From Oscillospiraceae bacterium (GTDB lineage: Bacteria > Bacillota > Clostridia > WRCU01): DNA of 15,722 bases. A program made the translations under genes and the position numbers. How positions within the stretch are numbered: position 1 is the stretch's first letter; each line of letters begins with the position of its first letter. Shown here one piece after another: positions 2,536-11,208 of this stretch. The DNA is taken from positions 1-15,722 of the forward strand of contig WRCU01000008.1 of the NCBI GenBank assembly GCA_009783805.1. The letters are read 5' to 3'. The notes beneath the pieces were generated by a model, which was given only the letters and a program-made list of their open reading frames with translations, was not told the origin of the DNA and ran no database searches.

Positions 2536-2657
2536 ATGACGGATCGCCGCGTCGCCGGCGCCCCTCGCGATGACAGACCACGGATCGCCGCGTCGCCGGC
2601 GCCCCTCGCGATGACAGACCACGGATCGCCGCGTCGCCGGCGCCCCCGCTATGATGG
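2536..2657 (+). repeat. Tandem 41-bp repeat, about 2.8 units
   Basis: Three units begin with GATCGCCGCGTCGCCGGCGC at 2542, 2583 and 2624, a period of exactly 41 bases. The first two are identical over the 33-base core (2542-2574 and 2583-2615); the third degenerates after its first 25 or so bases. The core ends in CCTCGCGATGAC and its reverse complement matches the element at 4067-4099 in about 29 of 33 bases. A reading frame runs through the array into the next gene. The period is not a multiple of three, so the repeats would encode different peptides each time, and I therefore treat the array as non-coding. Confidence 0.85.
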
Positions 2658-2703
2658 CACTGGATGGCTCCCATGCGATAATAGGCAGGGAAGGCGGTGG
2701 CCC

Positions 2704-3930
2704 ATGAACGATGACAAGAGGATCGTCCGGCGTTTGGCCTGGGAATACGCCGAGGCGTCGCAGGACCCTAAGAACGCCGAAAAGATGCGGCTCCATCGGG
2801 CCGTGAACGACCTGAGGCAGGTGCGCCCGGTCGTGCTGCTCGATGAGATTCCCTTCCATGAGCTCAACTACGACGGTTCGCTCAATTACCGGTGCGGGGA
2901 CCGGACGCTGGCCCACGCCGAATGGTGGATGCGGAACGCCCTGTTCAAGTGGCGGCATTTCCCGGCGGACATGTTCCTGCAGCCTTTCTTCCCCATCCAA
3001 AAAATCATAAGGTCCACCGGGATCGGGATAGCGACCAGGGAGACGATCCTCCCCACCGACCCGCGGAACGGCGTGGTCTCCCACGCATACCACGACCAAC
3101 TGCCCGACGTGGAGTCGATCGAGAGGCTGACCGAACCTATCCTCTCGTACGACCGCGAGTCGACCGCGGCCATGTTCGACAAGGTCGCCGACGCCATCGG
3201 GGACATACTGCCGGTGCGCATAACGGGTCACAAGACGCACATAGTGCCTTGGGACGACCTTTCGCGGCACCACGGGATCGAGAGGATGCTGCTGGACACC
3301 GCGGACCGGCCGGATTACCTGCACGCCGCCATAAGGAAGCTGATCGGGTTCGAGGTCTCGAAGGCGAAACAGATGGAGGACCTAGGGCTCTTCGAGATCC
3401 AGATGCCCGACATCCACTGCACGCCGGCCCTCGCTAGCGACCTGCCGGGTGACTATGACGGCGGCGTGGTGCGTAGGGGCAACATATGGGGCAAGACCCA
3501 CTCGCAGATCTTCGGCTCCGTCTCGCGCGAGGCGCATGAAGAGTTCTGCCTCAGCTACCTGCGGGAGGTCATGGAGCCTTTCAGGCTGGTCTATTACGGA
3601 TGCTGCGAGCCCCTGGATAGAAAGGTCGACATGATAGGGACGATACCCCACCTCCGTAAGATATCGATAACTCCATGGGCGGACATCGAGATGTCGGCCG
3701 AGGCCATAGGCGGCAAATACGTGCTCTCCAGCAAGCCGAACCCGGCGCTTGTGGCCGTGGACTTGGACGAGGGGGAGGTGCGCCGCGAGATAGGCGGCAT
3801 ACTGTCGGCCTGTAAAAGGCACGGCTGCAACTGCGACATCGTGCTCAAGGACATCAGCACGGTGGGGTATAGGGCCGACAACCTCATGCGTTGGGAAAGG
3901 ATCGCTATGGAGCTCGTCGAGGGCTGGTAG
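2704..3930 (+). CDS. Uroporphyrinogen-decarboxylase-superfamily-like protein, function unknown
   Basis: From the ATG at 2704 the product is 408 residues, soluble, with no signal or membrane segment. The overall pattern suggests the UroD/MtaA-like methyltransferase TIM-barrel superfamily, recognised from C-terminal motifs rather than a firm match. These are IHC near residues 237-239, YGCCEPLD (298-305), ISITPWAD (320-327) and SKPNP (343-347). The Cys/His residues could bind zinc, as in corrinoid-dependent methyltransferases of this fold, but no corrinoid protein is nearby. The frame extends 56 codons upstream to an ATG at 2536, but that part is translated from a non-coding tandem repeat. The chosen ATG has GGAAGGCGG a few bases upstream. 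Relatives I recall sit in carbohydrate-degradation loci of anaerobes. Its role beside sugar dehydrogenases is unknown; haem synthesis is unlikely given the context and length. Confidence 0.7.
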   Translation: MNDDKRIVRRLAWEYAEASQDPKNAEKMRLHRAVNDLRQVRPVVLLDEIPFHELNYDGSLNYRCGDRTLAHAEWWMRNALFKWRHFPADMFLQPFFPIQKIIRSTGIGIATRETILPTDPRNGVVSHAYHDQLPDVESIERLTEPILSYDRESTAAMFDKVADAIGDILPVRITGHKTHIVPWDDLSRHHGIERMLLDTADRPDYLHAAIRKLIGFEVSKAKQMEDLGLFEIQMPDIHCTPALASDLPGDYDGGVVRRGNIWGKTHSQIFGSVSREAHEEFCLSYLREVMEPFRLVYYGCCEPLDRKVDMIGTIPHLRKISITPWADIEMSAEAIGGKYVLSSKPNPALVAVDLDEGEVRREIGGILSACKRHGCNCDIVLKDISTVGYRADNLMRWERIAMELVEGW

Positions 3931-4196: not shown

Positions 4197-5195
4197 TTGC
4201 CACGCAATGGGGATGCGAATGACGGCCATGCGGCGCTGCTTGCGGACCGCGCCTTCTGCCTGAACTTGCTTAGGCACCTGATGCTGGTGCGCAAGTTCGA
4301 GGAGCGCGTATATCAGCTGTTCGGGCAGGGGAAGGTGCACGGCACCGCGCACCTCTGCGTCGGCGAGGAGGCCACGGGCATAGGGACGACCTTCGCCCTC
4401 AAGGAGGGCGACCTCATGTTCGCCAGCCACAGGGGGCACGGTCAGGCGATCGGCAAGGGGATACCCGTCGAGCGGATAATGGCCGAGATACTCGCGAAGG
4501 ATACCGGCGTGAACCACGGCAGGGGCGGCTCCATGCACATTGCCGACATCGGCCACGGCGTGCTCGGCGCCAACGGCATCATGGGGGCCAGCGGACCCCT
4601 AGCCTGCGGCGCGGCGCTGTACGTCAAGATGAAGGGCATCAAGGACCGCGCGGCCGCCTTCTTCTTCGGCGACGGATCGAGCAACCTGGGCGCCATACAC
4701 GAGTCCATGAACCTCGCGGCCGTGTGGGGGCTGCCCGTCATGTTCGTCCTGACCAATAACGGGTACGGAATGGGGACGCCGCTGAAGGCGGCCGTCAACG
4801 ACACCGACTTGACCAAGCGCGCCGTCCCGTTCGGCATGAAAAGCTACGAGGTAGACGGGAACGACGTGCTCGCGGTCTACCTGACCGCAACCGAGGCGCG
4901 CGGCTACGTCGTCGGGAACGGGGCGCCCGCGCTGATCGTCGAAAATACATACAGGACCAGCGGCCACTCAAAGAGCGACGGCAACCTGTACCGCTCTAAG
5001 GAGGAGATCGAGTGGTGGAAGGCGAGGAACCCCGTCATCAGGTTCACGGAGCGGCTCTTCGAGGGCGGGTACGCCCAGGGGGACATAGACGAGGCCGACC
5101 GATGGGCCGCCAGGACCGTCGATGATGCCGTCGATTACGCGATGGGCTGCCCGGACCCGGCCATAGACGATTTTGAGAGGGCGTCCTACGCCTAA
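4197..5195 (+). CDS. 2-oxoacid dehydrogenase E1 alpha subunit (pyruvate/acetoin type)
   Basis: This 332-residue thiamine-diphosphate enzyme forms an alpha2beta2 E1 with the next gene's product. It decarboxylates a 2-oxoacid (or cleaves acetoin) and passes the acyl group to lipoyl lysine. The TPP/Mg motif runs from GDG (158-160) to NN (187-188). SHRGHG (77-82), GRGGSMH (108-114) and the C-terminal YRTSGHS are typical of pyruvate and acetoin dehydrogenase E1 alpha; length is normal. The start must be TTG at 4197, because an in-frame TGA immediately precedes it and the next in-frame ATG is at codon 29, inside conserved sequence. GAGGATCGGTGATC upstream supplies a ribosome-binding site. The first ten codons fall in what looks like a decayed copy of the dispersed repeat. 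First gene of a six-gene run. Substrate cannot be read from sequence; pyruvate or acetoin is most likely. Confidence 0.93.
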   Translation: MPRNGDANDGHAALLADRAFCLNLLRHLMLVRKFEERVYQLFGQGKVHGTAHLCVGEEATGIGTTFALKEGDLMFASHRGHGQAIGKGIPVERIMAEILAKDTGVNHGRGGSMHIADIGHGVLGANGIMGASGPLACGAALYVKMKGIKDRAAAFFFGDGSSNLGAIHESMNLAAVWGLPVMFVLTNNGYGMGTPLKAAVNDTDLTKRAVPFGMKSYEVDGNDVLAVYLTATEARGYVVGNGAPALIVENTYRTSGHSKSDGNLYRSKEEIEWWKARNPVIRFTERLFEGGYAQGDIDEADRWAARTVDDAVDYAMGCPDPAIDDFERASYA

Positions 5196-5216: not shown

Positions 5217-6203
5217 TTGAGGGAGATGACGTACGCCGAGGCGATACGCGATGCGATGAGCGGCGAGATGCGCCGGGATGAGGGCGTCTTCCTCATGGGT
5301 GAGGACATAGGCGTGTATGGCGGCGCATTCGGCGTGACGAGGGGCATGCTGGCGGAGTTCGGGCCTGAGCGGGTGCGCGACACACCGATATCCGAGTCCG
5401 CGTTCGTCGGCGCCGGCACCGGCGCCGCGATGATGGGCCTGCGCCCGATCGTCGAGCTCATGTTCTCCGACTTCATGGCGGTATGCTACGACCAGATAAT
5501 CAATCAGGCGGCCAAGCTGCGCTTCATGTTCGGAGGCAAGGTAACGGTGCCCATGGTGATACGCGCGGCCTCCGGCGGGGGTACCGGGGCGGCGGCCCAG
5601 CACTCCCAATCCCTGGAAGCCATGTTCTGCCACGTCCCCGGCCTGAAAGTCGTCGCCCCCAGCACGCCGCGCGACGCGAAGGGCCTGCTCATCAGCGCGA
5701 TACGGGACGACAACCCCGTCATATTCCTAGAGCAGAAGCTCCTATACGGCACGAAGGGCGCGGTGCCCGAGGGCGACTATGCGATCCCGCTGGGCTCCGC
5801 CGACGTGAAGCGCGAGGGCGGCGACGTGTCCGTCATCACGTATGGGCGGACCGTGCAGATGGCCCTCGACGCCGCGGAGCGGCTGGCGCGTGAAGGGGTG
5901 AGAGTCGAGGTCCTCGACGTCAGGTCGCTCTATCCCCTGGACCGCGGCGCGATCATAGGGACCTCGAAAAAGACCGGCCGCGTGGTCGTGGCGCATGAGG
6001 CGGCCTTGTTCGGCGGCTTCGGCGGCGAGATCGTCTCCGTGATCGCAGACAGCGAGGCGTTCTTCCACTTGGACGCGCCGATCAAGCGCGTGGGCGCATT
6101 GCATTGCCCCATACCGTTCAACCCTGGCCTGGAGGCGCAGGTGCTGCCTTCCGCGGTCCGCATCGAGGCGGCCGTCCGCGAGGTCATTACGGGAGGGGTC
6201 TAA
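5217..6203 (+). CDS. 2-oxoacid dehydrogenase E1 beta subunit
   Basis: The 328-residue partner of E1 alpha contributes the pyrimidine-binding half of the TPP site and the C-terminal transketolase domain. Visible motifs are GEDIG (28-32), DTPISESAF with Glu60 as the cofactor-activating glutamate, and QHSQSLEA around His129. LDVRSLYPLD and HEAALFGGFGGEI lie in the C-terminal half. Length matches the usual 325 or so residues. The TTG at 5217 follows AGGGAGGGT (5202-5210) at 6-base spacing. The in-frame ATG at 5226 would be too close to its own purine stretch. It begins 21 bases after E1 alpha stops, and its TAA shares one base with the E2 ATG, so translation of E1 beta and E2 is probably coupled. 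The motifs fit pyruvate or acetoin type enzymes; the branched-chain type is less likely but not excluded. Confidence 0.94.
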   Translation: MREMTYAEAIRDAMSGEMRRDEGVFLMGEDIGVYGGAFGVTRGMLAEFGPERVRDTPISESAFVGAGTGAAMMGLRPIVELMFSDFMAVCYDQIINQAAKLRFMFGGKVTVPMVIRAASGGGTGAAAQHSQSLEAMFCHVPGLKVVAPSTPRDAKGLLISAIRDDNPVIFLEQKLLYGTKGAVPEGDYAIPLGSADVKREGGDVSVITYGRTVQMALDAAERLAREGVRVEVLDVRSLYPLDRGAIIGTSKKTGRVVVAHEAALFGGFGGEIVSVIADSEAFFHLDAPIKRVGALHCPIPFNPGLEAQVLPSAVRIEAAVREVITGGV

Positions 6204-7162
6204 TGCCGCCCAGCGCCCGCAGGATCCCCTCCACACCGAAGGCCAAGGCGGCCGCCCGCGAGCGCGGGGTAGACCTCGGGCTGGTCGCCCCTACCGGCAG
6301 GCACGGCGAGGTGGTCGCATCAGACGTAATGTCCGCGCGGCTTAATAAACATGCGGCGACCCCTCTCGCCATGCGCATGGCCTTAGATAGGAACATAGAC
6401 CTGTCATCCATACGGGGGAGCGGCCACGCCGGGAAGGTCTTCAGCATTGACATGCCGAGTGCGGGGAAGGCGGGCAGGCCGGTCAGGATGTCGCCCATGA
6501 GGAAGGCCGTGGCGGATAGGATGCTGCTGAGCCATACGGCCATACCGCCGGTCACGCAGAACGTGGAGGCCGACGTCACGGCCTTCCTCCGTTTCCGCAA
6601 GGAGATGAACGCGAGTCTCCCAAAGGAAGAGGGCATATCCGTAAACGATTGGATACTGAAGGCCGCGGCCGTGGCGCTCCGTGAGAATGACCGTTTCCGC
6701 TATCAGCTCAATGAGGGCGGAGGGTACCTGGCATACGACGAAGTGAACGTGGGGATGGCCGTCTCCCTCGACGACGGGTTGATCGTCCCCGTTATCCGCC
6801 GAGCCGACGCGCTGACGGCGCACGAGATCGCCGCGGAGTCCAAGCGGCTCGCCTCGGCGGCGCGCGGCAGGCGCCTTTCCCCAAAGGACCTCGAAGGCGG
6901 CGTATTCACGGTCAGCAACCTCGGCATGTACGGGGTGACCTCCTTCACCCCCATCATAAACCACCCCGAGGCCGCGATACTGGGCGTATGCGCGCCCGTA
7001 TGCAGGCTGGCGATGGAAAGGGACGGCACGGTCGCCGAGCATAGCCACATGACGCTGTCGCTGACGTATGACCATAGGATCATCAACGGGGCGGAGGCCG
7101 CCGTCTTTGCGAACAGGATAAAGGGTCTGCTGGAGCGTCCCGAGGATCTTCGGCTGATATAG
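6203..7162 (+). CDS. 2-oxoacid dehydrogenase E2 acyltransferase lacking a lipoyl domain, with two subunit-binding domains
   Basis: The product has 319 residues from the ATG at 6203, which overlaps the E1 beta stop and follows GGGAGGGG at 4-base spacing. It opens directly with a peripheral-subunit-binding domain (about 5-42, STPKAKAAARERGVDL). A second follows (about 51-84, ATPLAMRMALDRNIDL ... GSGHAGK). The catalytic acyltransferase domain (about 95-319) comes after a linker of only about ten residues. The active-site motif reads DHRIINGAEAA, with His291 present and Asn295 where most family members have Asp. Ordinary E2 proteins begin with one to three lipoyl domains; none is present here. 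The frame does extend upstream to about 6104, but that overlaps E1 beta and resembles no lipoyl domain. E2 should form the core that binds E1 and E3 and transfers the acyl group to CoA, using lipoyl arms supplied by E3. Confidence 0.93.
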   Translation: MPPSARRIPSTPKAKAAARERGVDLGLVAPTGRHGEVVASDVMSARLNKHAATPLAMRMALDRNIDLSSIRGSGHAGKVFSIDMPSAGKAGRPVRMSPMRKAVADRMLLSHTAIPPVTQNVEADVTAFLRFRKEMNASLPKEEGISVNDWILKAAAVALRENDRFRYQLNEGGGYLAYDEVNVGMAVSLDDGLIVPVIRRADALTAHEIAAESKRLASAARGRRLSPKDLEGGVFTVSNLGMYGVTSFTPIINHPEAAILGVCAPVCRLAMERDGTVAEHSHMTLSLTYDHRIINGAEAAVFANRIKGLLERPEDLRLI

Positions 7163-7175
7163 GGAGAGGGATCTT

Positions 7176-8870
7176 ATGGCGTCGGAAATCATAATGCCGA
7201 AGAATGGCATGACCCTGACCGAGGGCACGGTCGTCCGTTGGCTGAAGGGCATAGGCGAGGCGGTGGCCTCCGATGAGCCGATCCTGGAGATAGAGACCGG
7301 TAAAAGCGCCATGGAGGTGGAGTCGCCCGCCTCCGGCGTCCTGCTGGCCAGATACGCGGAGGAGGGCGACGTCGTGCCCGTCCTGGCGGTGATCGGCTAC
7401 GTCGGGCAGGCCGGCGAAGGCGTCCCGGCGTCCATGCCCGCCTTAAGGGGCGGCGGCGCGGAGCCGAAGGCTGCGGCAAGGACGGCCGTAAACGAGGGAT
7501 ATGACTACGACATCGCGATAATCGGCGGCGGCCCCGCCGGCTACGTGGGCGCGATCCGGGCGGCCCAGTCGGGCGCGCGCGTGGTCCTCTTCGAAAAAGG
7601 GGACCTTGGGGGGACATGCCTGAACCGTGGCTGCATACCCACGAAAAGCTACTTGAAATCGGCGGGGATCATGGCGGACATCCGCAAGGCGGAGCGGTTC
7701 GGCATCGAGTTCGACGGGACGGCGCATGCGAACCTCGGGAAGATACATGATCGCAAGGAAGGCGTCGTCCGAACCCTTCGGGACGGAGTCGGCAAGCTGC
7801 TGGATCGCCGCGGAGTCAAGGTGGTCGACGCCCGGGCCGAATTGGCCGGGGATCGTGAGGTGGCGGCGGGCGGCGCCGGCTATTCCGCAGCCAAGATCAT
7901 ACTGTGCACGGGTTCCAAGGCGGTCCTGCCCCCCATCCCGGGCATGGGCCACGCCGGCGTGCTCACCAGCGACTCGATCCTAGGGCTCCGCGAGCTCCCT
8001 AGGCACCTCTGCGTAATCGGGGGCGGCGTGATAGGCTGCGAGCTGGGCTATGCGTTCCGGGCGTTCGGCAGCGAGGTCACCATACTGGAGGCGGAGGAGC
8101 GGATCCTTCCCGGATTCGACGGAAGCGTGTCCGAGGCCATCCGCGGGGCGCTCGCCGAAATGGGGATCACCGTGATGACCGGCGCGAAGGTGCGGGGCGT
8201 CGGCGATGACGGCGGGCGGCCCGTAGTCGCCGTCGAAGGGAACGCGTTCCCGTGCGACAAGGTCCTGGTTTCGGTCGGCAGGGCGCCGGTGCTGGACTGT
8301 CTGGGCCCGATGAGGGACAGGTTCCAAATGGAGCGCGGATACATCAAGGTGGACGGCCATATGGAGACGGGCGTCAAGGGGATCTACGCGGCGGGGGACG
8401 TAAGCGGCAGGCTTATGCTGGCGCACGCGGCCTCGATGATGGCGGAGGCCGCGGTGATGAGCGCGCTGGGCGACGAAAGGGTCTGTGACCTGCGTTACGC
8501 GCCTTCCTGCCTCTATACCGTGCCGGAGGCGGCGGGCGTCGGGATGACCGAAAGGCAGGCACGGGAAAGGCACGGCGATGACGTGTCCGTCGGCCACTTC
8601 CCTATGGCCGCGAACGGACGCGCGGTGGCCTCCGGCGACGGCGGGGGCTTCGTCCGCGTCATTGTCGGGCGCCGCTATGGGGAGATACTCGGGACCCACA
8701 TCGTCGGCGCGTCGGCGGTCGAGATGATCGCGGGTCCCGCCGCCCTTATGGCCAGCGAGGTAACCGCCCATGAGGTCGCGGAATCCCTGCCCCACGCCCA
8801 CCCGACCTACAGCGAGGCCTTTGCGGAGGCCTGCGCGGACGCGCTGGGGAGATGCGTGCACCTGCCGTAA
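7176..8870 (+). CDS. lpdA: Dihydrolipoamide dehydrogenase (E3) with N-terminal lipoyl domain
   Basis: The product has 564 residues, about 100 more than a plain E3. Residues 1-76 form a lipoyl domain whose attachment lysine is Lys43 in IETGKSAMEVESP. An Ala/Gly/Pro-containing linker (about 78-108) leads to the flavoprotein. FAD-binding GGGPAGYVGA starts near 117, the redox disulfide is Cys148/Cys153 (GGTCLNRGCIPTK), and the NAD-binding GGGVIG is at 282-287. The C-terminal interface domain has the catalytic His542/Glu547 pair (HAHPTYSE). All key residues are intact, so it should reoxidise dihydrolipoyl groups with NAD. The ATG follows GGGAGAGGG at 5-base spacing, 13 bases after E2. E3 proteins with a lipoyl domain are known in some acetoin and pyruvate complexes. 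Here it is the only lipoyl domain encoded in the operon. Confidence 0.96.
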   Translation: MASEIIMPKNGMTLTEGTVVRWLKGIGEAVASDEPILEIETGKSAMEVESPASGVLLARYAEEGDVVPVLAVIGYVGQAGEGVPASMPALRGGGAEPKAAARTAVNEGYDYDIAIIGGGPAGYVGAIRAAQSGARVVLFEKGDLGGTCLNRGCIPTKSYLKSAGIMADIRKAERFGIEFDGTAHANLGKIHDRKEGVVRTLRDGVGKLLDRRGVKVVDARAELAGDREVAAGGAGYSAAKIILCTGSKAVLPPIPGMGHAGVLTSDSILGLRELPRHLCVIGGGVIGCELGYAFRAFGSEVTILEAEERILPGFDGSVSEAIRGALAEMGITVMTGAKVRGVGDDGGRPVVAVEGNAFPCDKVLVSVGRAPVLDCLGPMRDRFQMERGYIKVDGHMETGVKGIYAAGDVSGRLMLAHAASMMAEAAVMSALGDERVCDLRYAPSCLYTVPEAAGVGMTERQARERHGDDVSVGHFPMAANGRAVASGDGGGFVRVIVGRRYGEILGTHIVGASAVEMIAGPAALMASEVTAHEVAESLPHAHPTYSEAFAEACADALGRCVHLP

Positions 8871-8947: not shown

Positions 8948-10501
8948 ATGAGTTGCTTCTTAGGCATCGACGCGGGGACCAGCGGCATCAAGGCCATGGT
9001 GCTAGATGAGCGGGGGGCCGTCCGCGGATCGGGGCATGGCGAATGCGGCGTCATCACCCCCTATCCCGGATGGGCGGAGCAGAGCCCGGAGGACTGGTGG
9101 CGGGCGTGCGACCGGGCGGTGAGGCAGGCGGTCGCGGAATCCGGCCTTGGGGCTGACATCAAGGGCATCGGCCTATCGGGGCAAATGCAGGGGCTGACCA
9201 TGGTGGACAAAGGGCACAGGCCTATCGGGAACTGCATCATATGGCTCGACCAGCGCTCCGGCGCGGAAGTCGAGGAGATATACGGGCTGATGGACGGGGC
9301 CGAGATGCTCGAGCGCACCGCCAACTTCTGCTTCAACAGCTTTTGGGCGCCTAAGCTGCTGTGGATGCGCAAGAACCGCCCGGAGGACTTTGGGCGCATA
9401 CATAAGGCGATGTTCGCGAAGGACTACCTGCGCCTGCTCATGACGGGCGAGGTCGCCGCGGAGGTCAGCGACGCGTCGCTCACCCTCCTCATGGACGTGC
9501 GCAGCCGCCGTTGGTCGCGGGAGATGTTCGACAGGCTCGGCCTCCCGTTCGGGATCGCACCGGAGCGTCTCCTGGAGTCCGCCGAGGTCGCCGGCCCCCT
9601 CAGGGCCGAAGTCGCCGACGGGTGGGGCCTGGCAGCGGGCACGCCCGTCGTCGCAGGCGCCGGGGACCAGCCCGCGGGCGGGGTGGGCACTGGGATCGTG
9701 CGCGAAGGCATGGTCGGCGCGACGATCGGGACGAGCGGCGTCGTGTTCGGCTGCTCGGACCGCCCGTTCGTCGACGACGCGAACCACGGGATGTACTCCA
9801 TGGCGCATGCGATGCCGGGCAAATGGTGCTACCTCGGCCTCGTGCTGTCCGCAGGCGGAGCTCTCAAGTGGCTGCGCGACGCTTTCTGGGCTGAGATGCG
9901 CGACTCCGGGGCCGACGTGTACGGATACATGGACATGCGCGCCGAGCGCGTCCAACCCGGCAGCGAGGGCCTAACGTTCCTGCCGTACCTCAACGGCGAG
10001 AACACGCCGCACCCCGACGGCGACGCGCGGGGCGTGCTGTTCGGGCTCTCGCTGCGCCACGGCGTGCCGGAGATCTGCCGCAGCGTCATGGAGGGCGTCG
10101 CGTTCGCCATGCGCGACTGCCTCGACGTATGCCGCGGTCTGGGCATCCCTGTCAGCGAGGTACGCGCGAACGGCGGCGGCGCCAGGAGCGCGCTATGGCG
10201 GCGGATACAGGCGGACGTCTACGGCGCGGACCTGGTCACCATGAACATGGAGGAGGGCCCGGCGGCCGGCGGGGCCATACTGGCCGCTGTCGGGGCGGGG
10301 CATTTCAACAGCGTGCCCGAGGCCTGCGACGCGCTGCTGAAGGTGACGGGCGTAACCAGCCCCATACCGGAGAACGTCCGCATATACGAGGACTATTACC
10401 AAACCTACCGTTCGCTGTACCCTAGCCTGAAGGGGCGGTTCGCCGAGCAGGCGCGGAACGTGAGGAAGCACCTTCGGCAAGGCGGGGGGGCGGCGACTTG
10501 A
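8948..10501 (+). CDS. xylB: Xylulokinase-like FGGY-family carbohydrate kinase
   Basis: The 517-residue product has the two actin-like ATPase domains of FGGY sugar kinases. Motifs in order are IDAGTSGIKAMVLD with Asp8, GLSGQMQGL (xylulokinases have GLSGQMHG) and CIIWLDQRS. Then come AGAGDQPAGG with the likely catalytic base Asp240, GATIGTSGVV, TFLPYLNGENTPHPD, and the adenosine motif NGGGARSALWRRI. Xylulokinase of E. coli is slightly shorter and uses the equivalent pair Asp6/Asp233. It would phosphorylate D-xylulose or a related ketose in the cytoplasm. It sits inside the 2-oxoacid dehydrogenase operon and its TGA overlaps the next gene's TTG (TTGA), so the kinase and lipoate ligase are translationally coupled. 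Another FGGY specificity, such as a different pentulose, remains possible. Confidence 0.88.
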   Translation: MSCFLGIDAGTSGIKAMVLDERGAVRGSGHGECGVITPYPGWAEQSPEDWWRACDRAVRQAVAESGLGADIKGIGLSGQMQGLTMVDKGHRPIGNCIIWLDQRSGAEVEEIYGLMDGAEMLERTANFCFNSFWAPKLLWMRKNRPEDFGRIHKAMFAKDYLRLLMTGEVAAEVSDASLTLLMDVRSRRWSREMFDRLGLPFGIAPERLLESAEVAGPLRAEVADGWGLAAGTPVVAGAGDQPAGGVGTGIVREGMVGATIGTSGVVFGCSDRPFVDDANHGMYSMAHAMPGKWCYLGLVLSAGGALKWLRDAFWAEMRDSGADVYGYMDMRAERVQPGSEGLTFLPYLNGENTPHPDGDARGVLFGLSLRHGVPEICRSVMEGVAFAMRDCLDVCRGLGIPVSEVRANGGGARSALWRRIQADVYGADLVTMNMEEGPAAGGAILAAVGAGHFNSVPEACDALLKVTGVTSPIPENVRIYEDYYQTYRSLYPSLKGRFAEQARNVRKHLRQGGGAAT

Positions 10502-11208
10502 CCATATGGGTGGAGAACGACCGCACCGACCCGCCCTGGAACCTCGCGTGCGAGGAGCACCTGCTGACCGCGAGGCGCGAGTCCGTAGCCATGCTGTGGC
10601 GCAACGCCCGATCGGTGATCATCGGGAGGAACCAGGACTTGGAATCCGAGGTCGACGCGGCCCTCGCCGAGCGGCTGGGCATCCCGGTCGTGCGCAGGCT
10701 CACCGGCGGCGGCGCGGTCTTCCATGACCTGGGGAACGTGAACTTCACGCATATATACACCTACGAAGGCGGGCATGAGATGGACTTCGCGCCCTTCGCC
10801 CGCCTGCTGACCTCCGCCTTGGGCGGGATGGGCGTCCGGGCCGAATTATCCGGTCGCAACGACATACTCGTCGACGGCGCCAAGGTATCCGGGTGCGCGC
10901 ACGCCTGCGTCGGCGACCGCGCGATCTACCACGGCACGCTGCTCTTCTCCGCCGACCTCTCCCAGATGGAGGGCCTCCTGCGCTACAGCGAGGAGAAGTA
11001 CCGGGGCAGGGGCATCAAGTCCGTATCCTCGAGGGTGGCGAACCTGAACCGCTGGATAAAGGGCATGGACGTGGCGGGTTTCATGGGATGCCTGCGGGAA
11101 GCCTTGGGCGCGGGGGCTAAGCGGTACGCGCTGACTGAGGCGGACGAATCGGCCATCGACGCGCTGTGCGGCGGCAAGTACCGCGACCCCAATTGGAACC
11201 GTATATGA
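10498..11208 (+). CDS. lplA: Lipoate-protein ligase A, catalytic domain only
   Basis: This 236-residue ligase of the BPL/LplA fold attaches lipoate to the lysine of lipoyl domains. The motifs are intact: NLACEEHLL (15-23), RRLTGGGAVFHDLGN (66-80) and RNDILVDGAKVSG with the catalytic Lys129. HGTLLFSADL and GIKSVSSRVANL follow further on. It ends at the KYRDPNWN motif that closes the large domain, so the roughly 80-residue C-terminal accessory domain of E. coli LplA (338 residues) is absent. In Thermoplasma acidophilum that domain is a separate protein, LplB, needed for lipoate activation; no such gene is visible here. The start is TTG, overlapping the kinase stop by four bases, and the resulting N-terminus aligns with the family. 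Being in the operon, it most likely modifies Lys43 of the E3-linked lipoyl domain. An octanoyl-transferase role (LipM-like) is an alternative. Confidence 0.9.
   Translation: MTIWVENDRTDPPWNLACEEHLLTARRESVAMLWRNARSVIIGRNQDLESEVDAALAERLGIPVVRRLTGGGAVFHDLGNVNFTHIYTYEGGHEMDFAPFARLLTSALGGMGVRAELSGRNDILVDGAKVSGCAHACVGDRAIYHGTLLFSADLSQMEGLLRYSEEKYRGRGIKSVSSRVANLNRWIKGMDVAGFMGCLREALGAGAKRYALTEADESAIDALCGGKYRDPNWNRI

Follow-up and report, generated by a model that had tools for sequence, protein, structure and literature searches.

Where does a 2-oxoacid dehydrogenase complex carry its swinging arm when the acyltransferase subunit has no lipoyl domain? This question is raised by a gene cluster in the draft genome (1.92 Mb, 339 contigs, 73.25% complete) of an Oscillospiraceae bacterium, assembly GCA_009783805.1. 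The stretch of DNA analyzed herein (the window) is one whole contig of 15,722 nucleotides (WRCU01000008.1; C8 in our numbering), in which the genes for E1 alpha and beta, the E2 acyltransferase, and the E3 dihydrolipoyl dehydrogenase are all found together. In the textbook complex, there are one to three lipoyl domains per E2 chain, as described in PMC6270654, and the arm on E2 is the basis of the textbook account of active-site coupling. A first-pass annotation of the window claimed the opposite arrangement, i.e. E2 without a lipoyl domain and E3 with one, whose attachment lysine is Lys43. In the present study, a Pfam domain search confirmed this composition with exact coordinates. The window probably encodes a 2-oxoacid (or acetoin-type) dehydrogenase complex in which the sole swinging arm has been moved from E2 to E3.

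Domain composition of E2 and E3

The window proteins were scanned with Pfam, and matches with E values up to 0.01 were reported. In E2, two E3_binding stretches precede a 2-oxoacid_dh domain (residues 93-316, 244 bits), and Biotin_lipoyl was absent at this threshold; thus, the E2-borne lipoyl domain of the textbook complex was not found. The first-pass annotation was right that E2 starts with a subunit-binding domain, but there are two such domains instead of one. In E3, Biotin_lipoyl was observed at residues 4-69 (44.8 bits, cut-off 22.1) together with the E3 body, in which the redox and base motifs are both present. The cluster is therefore provided with a lipoyl domain and an attachment lysine, Lys43, and lipoylation of this residue is predicted. 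The Lys43 column is invariant across 30 aligned E3 proteins with a lipoyl domain (lipoyl-E3), and the AlphaFold2 model places Lys43 in a hairpin turn with strands 35-41 and 44-49 on either side.

Co-occurrence of lipoyl-less E2 and lipoyl-E3 in relatives

Ten relatives of the window E2 (P0002-P0010 and P0012; 49-60% identical, 316-347 aa) have the same short form, begin at about the same place, and have no precomputed PF00364 match. Lipoyl-less E2 and lipoyl-E3 proteins were paired by the equal length of their longest contigs in five cases (P0003/P0122, P0004/P0124, P0007/P0123, P0009/P0128, and P0055/P0142), and the members of each pair are probably neighbours, as judged from these lengths. 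A sixth pair (P0113/P0184) was not counted, P0113 being a fragment.

Loci were taken from the matches listed in a contig scan, representing a sample and not a census, and their open reading frames (ORFs) were scored with hidden Markov models built in this analysis. After the exclusion of 5'-open ORFs, ORFs without a catalytic-domain start, duplicate sequences, and loci before L018, there remained 124 unique E2 ORFs complete at the 5' end, 117 with a lipoyl domain (lipoylated E2) and 7 without. The lipoyl-less E2s are those of the window, L038, L060, L064, L147, L096 (an Erysipelotrichaceae metagenome-assembled genome, MAG), and L122 (a Lachnospiraceae MAG). The adjoining E3 passed the score cuts in six of the seven loci and carried a lipoyl domain in all six, while the E3 of L060, with a score under the E3 cut, also has a lipoyl domain. 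The 117 lipoylated E2s adjoined lipoyl-E3 in 10 cases and plain E3 in 59, and no E3 was seen in 48. The numbers of lipoyl-E3 and plain E3 were 6 and 0 for lipoyl-less E2 and 10 and 59 for lipoylated E2 (Fisher p 4e-5, treating as independent loci that are related and were chosen by similarity). With Pfam, the six lipoyl-less E2s outside the window showed no lipoyl domain and two E3_binding stretches each, and a lipoyl domain was found in all four of the neighbouring E3s tested.

An added sample of 10 short E2 frames from outside the first locus set (L237-L246) was picked by eye, is not exhaustive, and entered no tree and no Fisher test. Clusters of E1-alpha, E1-beta, lipoyl-less E2, and lipoyl-E3 were observed in L237, L238, L239, and L241; the frames of L243, L245, and L246 are truncated on the 5' side and so not judgeable, and L244 contains a lipoylated E2 cut at the 3' end. 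Altogether, 11 of the 13 short complete E2 frames adjoin a lipoyl-E3. In addition, within one family (59 genomes), there is a genus in which all 14 genomes carry lipoyl-E3, with E2 lipoyl-less in 11 and the domain on both proteins in 3. The presence of both states in one genus offers matched pairs for estimating the cost of the switch.

Two peripheral subunit-binding domains (PSBDs) were present in 17 of 17 E2s paired with lipoyl-E3 (7 lipoyl-less and 10 lipoylated), and at least two in 43 of 59 E2s paired with plain E3 (Fisher p 0.016; the loci are not independent and were retrieved with a query that itself has two PSBDs). Among the four added E2s, two have two clear PSBDs, the second PSBD of L238 is at the cut, and L241 has one over the cut. 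A double PSBD might allow one E2 chain to hold both E1 and an arm-bearing E3.

Other arrangements were also observed. Tandem double lipoyl domains are present on E3 in L157:1147-3210 (688 aa), L238:6964-9003 (680 aa), and L241:5743-7767 (675 aa), and the adjoining E2s of L238 and L241 have no lipoyl domain. The lipoyl-E3 of L122 (7977-9686) has GGTCTNSGS in place of the usual GGTCLNRGC, so that the second redox cysteine is missing; about 600 bases past it, on the other strand, is an ORF judged by eye to be lipoate-ligase-like (L122:10304-11257). At the end of the L111 contig there is an isolated lipoyl ORF, possibly the beginning of a truncated E3. Finally, L069 (6230-8002), a relative within the window's part of the E2 tree, has an E2 with two lipoyl domains and a plain E3.

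Repeated origin and a possible route of relocation

When 238 E2 catalytic domains were placed in a FastTree tree, 12 changes were required to explain which of them are lipoyl-less, at least 9 of these being forced by well-supported branches. In an IQ-TREE tree of 55 of these 238 rows, from which L060 was excluded for its long branch, 9 changes were obtained, all forced (9-11 over bootstraps), and 8 when five lipoyl-less proteins from contigs shorter than 3 kb were removed; the fetched loci alone (20 rows, 6 lipoyl-less) gave 3. The fragments P0109, P0113, and P0116, P0065 (state unclear), and P0001 (a copy of the window protein) were excluded from the trees. A single clade of lipoyl-less E2 was rejected by approximately unbiased (AU) tests run after the tree had been inspected (p-AU 8.3e-5 for the loci, 0.0015 for all rows). 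Thus, lipoyl-less E2 arose more than once. Several switches are claimed here and no exact number, because some metagenome proteins on short contigs may be misjudged and the changes may include regains. These trees suggest several transfers of the arm between subunits.

A possible route is suggested by complexes whose E2 and E3 each have a lipoyl domain (doubly lipoylated). In 10 of 10 such loci, the E3 lipoyl domain is closest to the E2 copy of the same locus among 158 domains compared (76-100% identical), and the DNA identity of the same-locus pair is 76.6-97.5% in the lipoyl part. The copies of L218-L220, which are doubly lipoylated with E2 cut by the locus end, are 87-100% identical over short stretches. 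In genus g56, the doubly lipoylated layout is common to three species, and differences at fourfold sites were 3/36, 6/37, and 9/34 within loci compared with 18-27 of 32-35 between orthologous lipoyl segments. This result argues against one old duplication and for gene conversion or repeated fresh duplication. Gene conversion is therefore a plausible route for moving the arm between subunits, and might also have acted in the lineage of the window: lipoyl segments would be copied from one of the two genes to the other, and the E3-only layout would have resulted from subsequent loss of the copy in E2.

Herein, we tentatively propose, at slightly less than even chances, that the lipoyl arm is a mobile segment. 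Ongoing gene conversion would keep the copies alike and allow a recurrent handover from E2 to E3, usually with two-PSBD E2s able to hold E1 and the arm-bearing E3, and E3-tethered arms would be a recurrent alternative design in Bacillota instead of a mycoplasma oddity.

Proposed mechanism

For the complex in the window, E2 would form the core and supply the acyltransferase site, and E1 and lipoyl-E3 would be held by the two PSBDs of E2. The lipoyl domain of E3, tethered by a linker about 29 residues long, would visit the E1 site for reductive acylation, then the E2 site for transfer to coenzyme A, and last an E3 site for reoxidation. Scavenged lipoate would be joined to Lys43 by the product of the neighbouring ligase gene. 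The arm is on E3 alone within the cluster, as first annotated, and tethering to E3 is still the most likely mechanism. An E3-borne arm implies coupling without an arm on the core, and the stoichiometry becomes testable, as the number of arms would be fixed by how many E3 dimers are docked.

Contrary evidence and alternative explanations

Several observations weigh against a sole arm moved to E3. First, the attachment motif of the window is ETGK and not ETDK, unique to the window copy among 102 motifs from 116 lipoyl-E3s; this rarity is tempered by ETGK in L060 and STGK in L157. Second, the DHRIING motif of the window E2 has Asn where most examined E2s carry Asp. This Asn is invariant in the 12 E2s aligned and is also present in the lipoylated relatives P0011 and P0013, which indicates a feature of the clade. 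Third, the single PSBD over the cut in L241 means that a double PSBD is not strictly required; it is thus usual and not a precondition. Fourth, the gene-conversion signal is found only in loci with both copies, and the window lineage keeps one. Fifth, two short E2 frames depart from the pattern: L240 matches E2 weakly and shows no E3 within 9 kb, and L242 has a 246-aa E2 in which no PSBD was found, an adjacent 88-aa lipoyl ORF, and a plain E3. Two further points, a second E2 and the missing part of the genome, bear on the alternatives described below. As to the locus L242 itself, the 88-aa lipoyl ORF overlaps the start of the E2 frame (L242:5959-6953), and this might be either a disrupted gene for E2 or a free-standing lipoyl carrier.

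The best surviving alternative, which we nevertheless consider unlikely, is that arms are supplied to the window complex by a second E2, which would mix into the core or lend its lipoyl domains, the E3 lipoyl domain being secondary. Three Biotin_lipoyl matches were found in the genome, in the window E3, in a C220 protein adjoining a carboxyltransferase, and in an E2 encoded on contig C122, so that the claim of an only lipoyl domain holds for this cluster but not for the genome, which has two more. The C122 E2 (463 aa, a lipoyl domain and one Pfam PSBD) may supply arms across to the window complex, and in Corynebacterium glutamicum, OdhA depends on the arms of AceF. However, C122 also encodes a plain E3 and an E1-alpha that runs off the contig, and the genome totals of two E2 and two Pyr_redox_dim matches fall one in each set. 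The C122 E2 thus has its own partner genes, and nothing shows that it serves the window E1; moreover, it is 35% identical to the window E2, with 41% between the lipoyl domains, and lipoyl-less E2 and lipoyl-E3 occur together repeatedly, in lineages separate from each other. The first-pass annotation had named another E2 serving this E1 as the finding that would count against it; another E2 was found, of the lipoylated type, but beside its own E3 and E1-alpha genes.

Two other origins or functions of these domains were considered and rejected. Biotin instead of lipoate on the window E3 is not supported, as the MKM motif, a biotin signature, is missing there and present in the C220 carrier. The window E3 lipoyl domain is also not a fresh copy of the C122 domain, given an identity of only 41%. 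On contig C55, an E1-alpha/E1-beta pair (L015:1795-3831) lies near a xylose-isomerase-like gene; no E2 or E3 was found on this 8 kb contig, and the pair may borrow them or act alone.

It is even more doubtful that the E3 lipoyl domain has another redox task, with the complex served by a free lipoyl carrier whose gene escaped assembly. Neither LipA nor GcvH was detected in this assembly, in which the window ligase is the sole PF21948 match; about a quarter of the genome is missing, and absence is therefore weak evidence. The missing part may encode LipA, GcvH, or a free lipoyl protein, and in L242 a truncated E2 does have a separate lipoyl ORF next to it. In contrast, no free lipoyl ORF of at least 60 aa was found in 11 loci with lipoyl-less E2 and lipoyl-E3 (four of which are only about 4-5 kb), and a single lipoylated band, PdhD, is reported for Mycoplasma hyopneumoniae extracts in PMC7873978.

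Last, the deletion of a lipoyl domain from E2 by a sequencing or assembly error, which the first-pass annotation itself had raised and for which only the fragmentation of the draft speaks, can practically be dismissed: the E2 start overlaps the E1-beta stop in TAATG, leaving no room upstream of E2 for a lost lipoyl domain, and relatives 49-60% identical have the same short E2.

Gene cluster in the window

The features that support an arm carried by E3, together with the neighbouring genes, are listed in Table 1.

Table 1. Coordinates of the dehydrogenase complex genes, their domains and the downstream genes in the window.
Feature	Position	Strand	Evidence
E1 alpha (thiamine diphosphate-binding), 332 aa, TTG start	4197..5195	+	PF00676, 240 bits; GDG...NN motif
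E1 beta	5217..6203	+	PF02779, PF02780
TAATG, one-base overlap of E1-beta stop and E2 start	6201..6205	+	Sequence
E2 acyltransferase without lipoyl domain, 319 aa, ATG 6203 to stop 7162	6203..7162	+	Pfam; AlphaFold2, mean predicted local distance difference test (pLDDT) 85.1
E2 PSBD 1	6230..6337	+	Pfam E3_binding, two stretches
E2 PSBD 2	6353..6463	+	Pfam E3_binding, two stretches
E2 catalytic domain; DHRIING at 7070-7090	6479..7150	+	Pfam 2-oxoacid_dh
E3 dihydrolipoyl dehydrogenase, N-terminal lipoyl domain, 564 aa, ATG 7176 to stop 8870	7176..8870	+	TIGR01350, 451 bits (cut-off 408.8); AlphaFold2, mean pLDDT 89.6
E3 lipoyl domain, residues 4-69	7185..7382	+	PF00364
Lys43 codon AAA, predicted lipoyl attachment, motif ETGKS	7302..7304	+	Alignment; predicted structure
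Part of E3 linker, residues 89-105, pLDDT <50	7440..7490	+	AlphaFold2
E3 body, GGTCLNRGC redox motif and HAHPTYSE	7506..8831	+	Pfam; structural match to lipoamide dehydrogenases, e.g. 2eq6
FGGY sugar kinase	8948..10501	+	Pfam
Lipoate-protein ligase	10498..11208	+	PF21948; TIGR00545, 239.2 bits, under cut-off 280

The GDG...NN motif of E1 alpha is presumably the signature of thiamine diphosphate binding. This protein is below the NCBIfam pyruvate dehydrogenase (PDH) cut-offs (304.7 compared with 393.85 bits). Besides the FGGY kinase, the neighbours are alcohol-dehydrogenase-like, xylose-isomerase-like, DUF4432, and GH5 genes, and together these neighbours suggest a role in sugar or polyol breakdown. 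Directly upstream of the complex, a 464-aa ORF (2536-3930) had no Pfam match (E up to 0.01), and NCBIfam gave no match to a shorter version of it (E up to 1e-5).

Comparison with known systems

Whether this layout had been described was left open in the first-pass annotation; it is in fact already known, because there are lipoyl-less E2 models in NCBIfam and a precedent in M. hyopneumoniae. The models NF011416 (PRK14843, an equivalog) and NF008815 (PRK11857) describe lipoyl-less E2s with lengths of 347 and 308, respectively. The window E2 differs in that it is under both cut-offs, with 180.5 bits on NF011416 (cut-off 429) and 185.7 bits on NF008815 (cut-off 378), and is not a member of either. 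The lipoyl-less E2 of L147, which belongs to the genus with both states and adjoins a lipoyl-E3, matched NF011416 along its entire length of 347 positions with 750.6 bits, over the cut-off; PRK14843 was presumably built from streptococci. The dihydrolipoamide dehydrogenase of Streptococcus pneumoniae, reportedly described by Hakansson and Smith in 2007 as "harboring its own substrate", would, by this title, be an E3 with its own lipoyl domain and so resemble the window E3. The 10 doubly lipoylated complexes have the same E3 fusion as the window and two PSBDs on E2 in every case, but differ in that E2 retains its own lipoyl domain.

The closest likeness is to the PDH of M. hyopneumoniae, for which PMC7873978 places the lipoyl domain on E3 (PdhD) and reports its lipoylation at K42. 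Lipoate is attached there by a ligase, and the authors of that paper found no genes for lipoate synthesis. The same text states that this result agrees with Matic et al. 2003, the title of which refers to a novel lipoyl domain arrangement, and also names E3 lipoyl domains for Alcaligenes eutrophus and Neisseria meningitidis. Both systems have a lipoyl domain on E3, none on E2, and a lipoate ligase, lipoylation being predicted in the window; for M. hyopneumoniae, the lipoyl-less E2 is taken from PMC7873978 and the 2003 prediction cited therein. However, M. hyopneumoniae is distant from the window organism and, according to the same text, has two ligases compared with one PF21948 match in the window genome. 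For this layout or for gene conversion of lipoyl domains, the only pertinent items found in a literature search outside which most subscription journals lay were the M. hyopneumoniae papers and the S. pneumoniae title, which is no proof that nothing else is in print. Thus, the layout is known but rare, and the addition of the present study to these known systems is the comparative evidence for repeated moves of the arm.

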